From Kiritimatiellia bacterium (GTDB lineage: Bacteria; Verrucomicrobiota; Kiritimatiellia; RFP12; UBA1067): a DNA stretch of 34,928 nucleotides. Below the pieces are notes generated by a model. The model ran no database searches, was not told the origin of the DNA, and saw nothing but the letters and a program-made list of their open reading frames with translations. Of this stretch, positions 21,131-24,799 are shown piece by piece; positions within the stretch are counted from its first letter, which is position 1; every line of letters starts with the position of its first letter. Where the stretch lies: the NCBI GenBank assembly GCA_017418445.1, contig JAFONM010000042.1, positions 1-34,928 on the forward strand. Direction: 5' to 3'. The position numbers and the translations under genes are program-made.

Positions 21131-21739
21131 ATGTCACAGGAATGGAACATCAGGTCCCGTGGACACTTCTGCAGCATCTGCCAGAAGCCGCTCGTGGACC
21201 ACGCTCCCGTAATAAGCGCGCTCAGGGAAACGCCCGAAGGATACGAGCGCTTCGACTGCCACCCGGAATGCTGGAAGACGGCCGAGCGCGACTGGGAGCC
21301 GTTTTCGCAGTGGGACGGAGTCTATTTCGCGCCGGTCAAGGTCGAGAAGAAGGAGGCCCTCAAGAAGGAGGACGCCGGGGAGCTCCTCAGGAAGCTCATG
21401 ACGCTCGACGATCCGGCGATGAAGAACGTCGTCTACGTCCTCGCCGTGATGCTCGAGCGGTCCAAGATCCTGGTCGAGCGCGATTCGAAGGAGCAGAAGG
21501 ACGGCACCATACGCCGCGTCTACGAAGACCGCCGGCAGGGCGACACTTTCGTCATACTCGATCCGCGCATCCGTCTCGAGAACATCGGCGAGGTCCAGCA
21601 GCAGGTCGTAGCGCTTCTTTCCGGAACCAAGACTCTCGGAGAAGTCTCCAGCGAGGAGGAATCCTCGGAGGCTTCCGAAGGGGCCGCGGAGTCCGGAGGA
21701 GCGGAGACGGCCGATGCGACTGACACCACGACAGCGTGA
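21131..21739 (+). CDS. Uncharacterised protein with N-terminal Cys-rich zinc-binding motif
   Basis: 202 residues. The N-terminus (WNIRSRGHFCSICQKPL, then YERFDCHPECW) places Cys14, Cys17, Cys43 and Cys47, with His12 and His44 nearby, as likely zinc ligands. The pattern resembles a family seen widely in Planctomycetes and Verrucomicrobia (from memory), of unknown role. The middle is charged and helical. The C-terminus from about 170 is a Ser/Glu/Ala-rich disordered tail. The end overlaps the SNF2 helicase gene by 26 bases, so the two are co-translated. The start is set by the leaderless promoter just before it. Confidence 0.75.
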   Translation: MSQEWNIRSRGHFCSICQKPLVDHAPVISALRETPEGYERFDCHPECWKTAERDWEPFSQWDGVYFAPVKVEKKEALKKEDAGELLRKLMTLDDPAMKNVVYVLAVMLERSKILVERDSKEQKDGTIRRVYEDRRQGDTFVILDPRIRLENIGEVQQQVVALLSGTKTLGEVSSEEESSEASEGAAESGGAETADATDTTTA

Positions 21740-24062: not shown

Positions 24063-24648
24063 GAAGAAGCGGTATCCCCTTAGGATTCCGAGGTCCGCCT
24101 CGGGGATCCGCGCGCAGGAGACGCGCGGCGGTTCGGCTCGCAGCTGGTGGGCGAAGAAGTGGCGCACGGCGCTCGAGCGGATGGGCGGACTCCTCGGCCG
24201 GTTCGGCCGCGGCAGGAACTACGCGATGTCCGGACAGATCGTGTCGCTGGGCATGGAGGGTCCGCACGTGGAGGCGACGGTCGTCGGCAGCCGTCCGGAT
24301 CCGTACAAGGTCACGATCAGCTTCCGCGCCCCGGACGACGCGGCGCACGACCGGATCGTCGCGGCGCTGAGGGCGGAGCCGATGCTCGTCGCGCGGCTTC
24401 TCACGGACGACCTTCCGCTGGAGGTCGAGGCGATATTCCGCAGGGAGGGCTTCGACCTCTTCCCGGGGGGGAAGATCGCCGAGAGGGTCTACGACGTGAC
24501 GACGAAGTGCTCGTGTCCCGACTGGGCGAACCCCTGCAAGCATTCGCTCGCGGTCCTCTTCATTCTCGGCGAGGAATGCGCCTGGCGTCCTGCGACGCTG
24601 CTGGAGCTTCGCGGAATTACGATGGAGGAGCTTTGCGATGAAGATTGA
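24055..24648 (+). CDS. SWIM zinc-finger protein, partner of the SNF2 helicase
   Basis: 197 residues. The SWIM motif CxC...CxH is visible as Cys152, Cys154, Cys161 and His163 (CSCPDWANPCKH). The N-terminus is basic with SARSWWAKKWRTALER, a hallmark of the bacterial SWIM family linked to SNF2 helicases; RGRNYAMSGQ is also typical. The start is a TTG at 24055 overlapping the helicase stop; the next Met would cut off the WWAKKW segment, so TTG is preferred. SWIM domains bind DNA or proteins. The C-terminus ends soon after the SWIM motif, and an overlapping small ORF in the next frame may hold the rest of the tail. Confidence 0.88.
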   Translation: MSRKKRYPLRIPRSASGIRAQETRGGSARSWWAKKWRTALERMGGLLGRFGRGRNYAMSGQIVSLGMEGPHVEATVVGSRPDPYKVTISFRAPDDAAHDRIVAALRAEPMLVARLLTDDLPLEVEAIFRREGFDLFPGGKIAERVYDVTTKCSCPDWANPCKHSLAVLFILGEECAWRPATLLELRGITMEELCDED

Positions 24649-24799
24649 GTCGCCGGTCCTAAAGCGCCTCGGCCCCGTTCCGTTCTGGCGCGGCGAGTCC
24701 CGCTGCCTCGACTCGCTCGAGGCTATCTACAGGCGCGCCGCGGAAAAGGCGCAGAAGGCCCTCGCGAAGAAGGATGCCAGGCAAAGGGGAAAGCCATGA
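24638..24799 (+). CDS. 53-residue ORF, possible split-off tail of the SWIM protein
   Basis: ATG at 24638, TGA at 24797-24799; frame shifted relative to the SWIM gene, overlapping its last 11 bases. ggaggag (24624-24630) lies seven bases upstream. The protein starts MKIESPVLKRLGPVPFW and continues with SLEAIYRRAAEKAQKAL, then a Lys/Arg-rich end. The LGPxPFW then L..(I/V)YRR pattern recalls the C-terminal tail of longer SWIM proteins in other phyla (from memory). It may therefore be a separately translated tail, or the result of a frameshift. No other gene occupies this stretch on either strand. Confidence 0.6.
   Translation: MKIESPVLKRLGPVPFWRGESRCLDSLEAIYRRAAEKAQKALAKKDARQRGKP

Follow-up and report, generated by a model that had tools for sequence, protein, structure and literature searches.

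The window, a stretch of DNA of 34,928 nucleotides, is contig C14 of a MAG of 1.39 Mb that is 65% complete. Close named relatives are Kiritimatiellae or Verrucomicrobia MAGs, several of them of ruminant-gut origin, and every genome compared in this work is a fragmented MAG. On the forward strand lies a chain of overlapping genes (Table 1), in which a 202-aa gene and an SNF2 gene share 26 nt, SNF2 and a SWIM gene share 8 nt, and SWIM and a short ORF, which we call the tail gene, share 11 nt. The SWIM ORF opens with a TTG (24055) and ends with a TGA (24646–24648). The tail ORF runs for 53 codons from an ATG at 24638 to a stop at 24797–24799, and its product carries the core motif LGPVPFWRG...CLDSLEAIYRRA. 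The original prediction had described an overlooked 53-residue ORF that starts inside the SWIM gene in another frame, with the sequence ggaggag seven bases before its ATG, and we find both the ORF and this sequence where they had been placed. Searches of Pfam and NCBIfam matched the 53-aa ORF to none of their listed families, and PADLOC gave no match for the tail and one marginal match for the SWIM protein.

Table 1. Features of the SWIM–tail locus in the window
Feature	Position	Strand	Basis or remark
202-aa gene, function unassigned	21131–21739	+	first gene of the conserved order
SNF2-family helicase, 782 aa	21714–24062	+	Pfam SNF2-rel_dom and DUF3670; upstream partner in the ancestral order
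SWIM zinc-finger protein, 197 aa	24055–24648	+	Pfam PF04434, 25.3 bits (cutoff 19.6)
Shine–Dalgarno sequence ggaggag	24624–24630	+	within the SWIM coding sequence; spacing to the tail ATG 7 nt
Stop/start overlap ATGAAGATTGA, 11 nt	24638–24648	+	sequence reading
Tail gene, 53-aa ORF	24638–24799	+	read as the detached SWIM C-terminal domain; homology to fused tails, purifying selection
DUF4011 helicase, 1163 aa	24850–28341	+	C-terminal MTES_1575 nuclease-like domain

The gene upstream of the tail carries a SWIM zinc finger that scores above the Pfam gathering score, and the SNF2 gene before it is the upstream neighbour of fused SWIM genes in other genera as well. From its SNF2 domain, the SWIM–SNF2 pair may be linked to DNA transactions. 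Against the NCBIfam SCO1167/SCO6262 helicase the SNF2 protein scored 499.6 bits, below the cutoff of 1200; it covers only positions 270–931 of this 932-position model, so that the N-terminal part of the family is apparently missing from it. The 202-aa gene, for which a Pfam search gave no match, adjoins SNF2 in G109, G112, G124, G126, G111, G024 and G115. Downstream of the tail, the DUF4011 helicase matches NCBIfam anti-phage ProA (1266.8 bits, cutoff 1500) and Hhe, as well as PADLOC PDC-S37, strongly but below the cutoffs, and is shorter than those models. A second, distant SWIM paralog (29–31% identity) is found beside an SNF2 gene of its own in two other genomes (L075, G032 contig C3; G123 contig C210).

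The tail aligns with the C-terminus of full-length SWIM proteins from the same family, order and phylum and from other phyla, and in tblastn the window's tail is 35–61% identical to fused tails. The comparison with full-length SWIM proteins that the original prediction had proposed has therefore found similarity, and the suspicion that the 53-residue pattern is the C-terminal tail of longer SWIM proteins is borne out. The tail motif follows a linker in the SWIM frame in Blastocatellia, Deltaproteobacteria, Chloroflexi, Magnetococcales and Methanophagales-type archaea, and is fused too in other families of the same order. Nine loci outside Kiritimatiellae/Verrucomicrobia were compared by tblastn, of which seven were fused; the remaining two (L050, L051) gave no tail match, although their printed C-termini look related. 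A tail profile of 21 rows, with invariant G, P, W and R of LGxxPFWRG, was run on whole genomes and matched fused frames as strongly as 4.9e-20. For three fused relatives, the tail region was without a match in Pfam or NCBIfam. Full-length bacterial and archaeal SWIM proteins encoded next to SNF2 (PF04434) have the same core, the same LGxxPFWRG tail motif and the same SNF2 neighbour as our locus, but they are one chain with a linker, whereas the window's genus has two genes and no linker. By homology the 53-aa ORF belongs to the C-terminal domain of these SNF2-linked SWIM proteins. Judged from its sequence, it is a real gene for the detached C-terminal domain of the SWIM protein encoded just upstream, whose own product in the window lacks the linker and tail of its fused relatives. 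Many fused relatives (L150–L164) have a further conserved stretch (DLRREDEKVVIKGANLHLK...) after the tail, which is absent from the tails of the genus.

A profile search of the family detected the tail in 99 of 114 genomes. Of the 61 genomes in the window's genus (Kiritimatiellae MAGs), 56 encode the tail in a separate short ORF. The open frame does not exceed 145 aa in any of them but G029, where a frame of 308 aa is a chance open frame around a 66-aa ORF. Other genera of the family have the tail in 43 of 53 genomes; the open frame spans 273 aa or more in 41 of these, and contig ends cut the remaining two (G099, G073). All 15 of the fused loci that were read out from these genera encode a single chain, SWIM through tail. 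In a sample of the phylum, 45 of 387 genomes matched, comprising nine of the genus, the truncated G099 and 35 with the tail in frames of at least 256 aa. Within the family search and the phylum sample, the split was seen only in the window's genus. A tree of 41 SWIM cores, into which 20 members of the genus were taken, placed these 20 in one group (support 94/88; 92% of 200 bootstraps) beside the fused genera g14, g26, g27 and g30. Because other families and phyla are fused, we infer that the fused gene is the ancestral state and the split one derived in a single clade, and one fission in the genus would be the simplest reading of these sequences.

This distribution also bears on whether the split is a product of an indel in the assembly or of a recent frameshift mutation. 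One window alone would look identical in that case, and relatives with a single continuous frame, which the original prediction had named as the sign of such an event, do exist; they lie only outside the genus. The split is common to 56 of the 61 genomes, with its start codon and Shine–Dalgarno sequence conserved, and the linker is missing as well, which implies more than a one-base change. Assembly error was rejected and recent mutation excluded because the split is genus-wide, and we give this explanation practically no probability.

The positions of the two genes are those of a translationally coupled pair, with an overlap of 4 to 17 nt in 49 of the 50 adjacent pairs that were measured. The overlap is 11 nt in 43 pairs, 4 nt in four, 14 nt in one and 17 nt in one, for which a GTG start would give 11; one pair has a 57-nt gap. 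Of the 56 genus genomes with a tail, all but G115 (55) were entered in the junction table, which has 54 rows because G005 lacks a usual start codon; tail starts are ATG in 51 of 54 and GTG in three. Thirty of the 51 adjacent pairs of the genus, five loci then known to be separate or tail-less and 23 fused loci were scored for a Shine–Dalgarno sequence of at least 5 nt in the first 36 nt downstream of the LRG motif. Such a sequence was present in 26 of the 30 split loci against three of the 23 fused loci, a gain that accompanies the split, and in one of the five loci then classed as non-adjacent or tail-less. In G006 and G024, where the tail is elsewhere, the EEL residues of SWIM are kept with codons gaagaa or gaagag and no Shine–Dalgarno sequence, which agrees with selection acting on initiation in addition to the SWIM residues. 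In G007 (L053), which has SWIM without a tail, a GTG that overlaps the SWIM stop by 4 nt opens a 258-aa ORF, which we take to resemble ComF, as if another gene took the coupled slot.

An overlap with a Shine–Dalgarno-like sequence upstream is also a property of programmed +1 frameshifts of the release factor 2 type, and programmed ribosomal frameshifting could join the two frames here to give a full-length protein plus a short form. The tail does follow SWIM immediately and in a different frame, and from fused relatives it is evident that a joined protein can function. However, the offset between the frames is not constant among species, being +1 in most pairs and the opposite in the 4-nt overlaps of G019, G023, G109 and G114. 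In G015 the tail ATG is immediately preceded by a TAG, and in G116 a stop lies one codon upstream of it, which would confine any shift to ~11 nt, and inspection of the printed junctions by eye revealed no slippery run and thus no conserved slippery site. Unlike in the release factor 2 type, the 7-nt spacing suits initiation at the ATG and the halves can be unlinked, as in the five genomes where SWIM and tail are apart. The split loci also lack the linker that fused relatives have. We therefore consider frameshifting very unlikely. Among the three explanations first put forward for the locus, a separate coupled subunit is the one favoured over frameshifting and an assembly indel, with the coupling suggested by the junction.

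The 53-aa length of the ORF is not striking by itself, as ~7.5 kb of GC-rich DNA contained 52 ORFs of at least 40 aa, and a count of ATG-to-stop lengths on the window was uninformative because coding and non-coding ATGs are mixed. It is conservation that sets the tail ORF above chance. Among 54 tails, differences at codon positions 1, 2 and 3 were 0.39, 0.33 and 0.60, with the third position highest, and pN was lower than pS in 1429 of 1431 genome pairs. Synonymous sites are saturated in many of these pairs, so that the weight falls on the close ones, of which the nine closest gave dN/dS values of 0 to 0.19. The tail frame is free of stops in 43 of 43 gap-free genomes, whereas the other two frames are so in 21 and 28 of the 43. 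The tail is under purifying selection.

Among the 61 genus members, 57 have SWIM and 56 the tail, with both present in 56, SWIM only in one (G007), tail only in none and neither in four. In G007, a MAG that is 82% complete, no tail was detectable; it may be dispensable there or may have been missed. SWIM and tail are adjacent in 51 of the 56 genomes, on different contigs in G005, G024, G029 and G103, and 2.2 kb apart in G006; comparison of coordinates with contig ends places the separated SWIM and tail sites inside contigs. In a 61-row tree, which is without G103 and G115, the four separated SWIM rows need three changes, at least two of them forced by well-supported branches. G024 has the 202-aa gene, SNF2 and the tail on one contig and SWIM on another. 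Its tail is closest to those of G120, G018, G031 and G034 and its SWIM lies in the same part of the tree, and contamination is a poor explanation because the two place alike. The G005 tail frame has no ATG, GTG or TTG before the conserved core, and this copy may use another start or be in decay. As for the other relocated tails, the rule used found no Shine–Dalgarno sequence in G029 and G103 and a weak one in G006. The order SWIM, tail, ybeY occurs in G102 and G109, where ybeY is a gene that we name by its motif only and presume to be such. A DUF4011 gene follows the ybeY-like gene in G102; in the window it follows the tail with no ybeY between. In G025, a second partial tail copy at a contig end (L129, contig C21) has throughout the same sequence as the main copy on C77 and is probably an assembly duplicate.

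The separations could mean that the tail is translated but independent of SWIM, for instance as a small partner of SNF2 or of another protein. The tail is away from SWIM in five of 56 genomes, standing directly after SNF2 in G024 and adjoining the presumed ybeY in G005 and G029. Yet the two halves are retained together, as none of the 61 genomes has a tail without SWIM, and G106 and G121 retain SNF2 orthologs, with neither SWIM nor tail detected in them. Furthermore, SWIM–tail pairs are intact in 19 genomes with SNF2 on another contig or kilobases away, of which some may be contig breaks; the SNF2 linkage table behind this count is without G009, G020, G110 and G114 (distant paralog matches only) and G113 (none). 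Independence of the tail from SWIM is thus improbable.

An AlphaFold model was made of a fused relative from the Blastocatellia (alignment of 31 rows; mean pLDDT 81, pTM 0.65). Its SWIM core is confident up to about residue 220, confidence is low at ~225–265 and a helical tail occupies 267–305; the model therefore suggests that the fission fell in a poorly ordered linker and that the halves can fold apart. When this model was compared with PDB structures, none matched at E<0.1, the best being 0.13, and a ZSWIM8 chain scored 0.15 (TMq 0.23), so that the search offers no clue to function. A PDB sequence search returned only matches to immunoglobulin-binding protein A and phage fibre, which were taken as spurious.

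We propose that an ancestral single gene encoded a SWIM zinc finger and a small helical C-terminal domain on a flexible linker. The ancestor of the genus would have lost this linker and come to carry two overlapping ORFs in place of one gene. The tail would be made as its own polypeptide of 44–72 aa by reinitiation at the ATG inside the 3' end of SWIM, aided by a Shine–Dalgarno sequence arising within the SWIM coding sequence. Both products would be kept, the tail most likely binding SWIM or its SNF2 partner non-covalently so that they work as one unit, and in five species the tail gene would later have come to lie away from SWIM and be separately expressed. Foldable halves and the known behaviour of coupled pairs suggest that the tail most probably associates again, as a separate subunit, with SWIM or with both SWIM and SNF2. 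We consider it highly probable that there was one ancestral fission, that the tail is a polypeptide of its own, normally coupled by termination–reinitiation, and that the halves still form one unit. Alternatively, because some species encode the tail elsewhere (after SNF2 or beside ybeY), it may be a free subunit of 45 residues acting in trans, with a second partner or a regulatory role on SWIM–SNF2 activity, which we regard as unlikely.

One fission followed by coupling would agree with accounts of overlapping pairs of this kind as translated by termination–reinitiation and enriched for subunits of complexes (PMC10666635, PMC6728339). The pairs described there likewise have a short stop/start overlap, a Shine–Dalgarno sequence in the upstream gene and products expected to be subunits of one complex, but their overlap is 4 or 1 nt. 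Here it is mostly 11 nt, the coupling is inferred and the pair would have originated by fission. The GeneTack study (PMC3711429) treats conserved co-location of stop and start as an indication of coupling and names fission among the sources of apparent frameshifts. Its frame transitions of the classes ‘translational coupling’ and gene fission have a conserved co-location of the ORF1 stop and ORF2 start, as here; those classes are without the later separation of halves that we see, and the term SWIM is absent from the main text of the paper (PMC3711429). A SWIM protein is described as radiation-induced in Deinococcus deserti, and this may or may not be of the SWIM family found here (PMC5552922); PMC3128077 and PMC11237513 give general background on gene fission. 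A literature search, in which coverage of subscription papers was sparse, found no published account of the SWIM–tail split.

Here we have described the SWIM/tail split as a new and well-documented instance of an evolutionary and translational pattern that is already known, to which the later unlinking of the genes is an attractive extra. We define a domain of ~40 aa in SNF2-linked SWIM proteins that is unlisted in Pfam and NCBIfam, and whose short gene is easily missed in such genomes. Finally, one family offers a natural series from fused genes through split, overlapping genes to split, unlinked genes, and this series is a good test case for fission stabilised by translational coupling.
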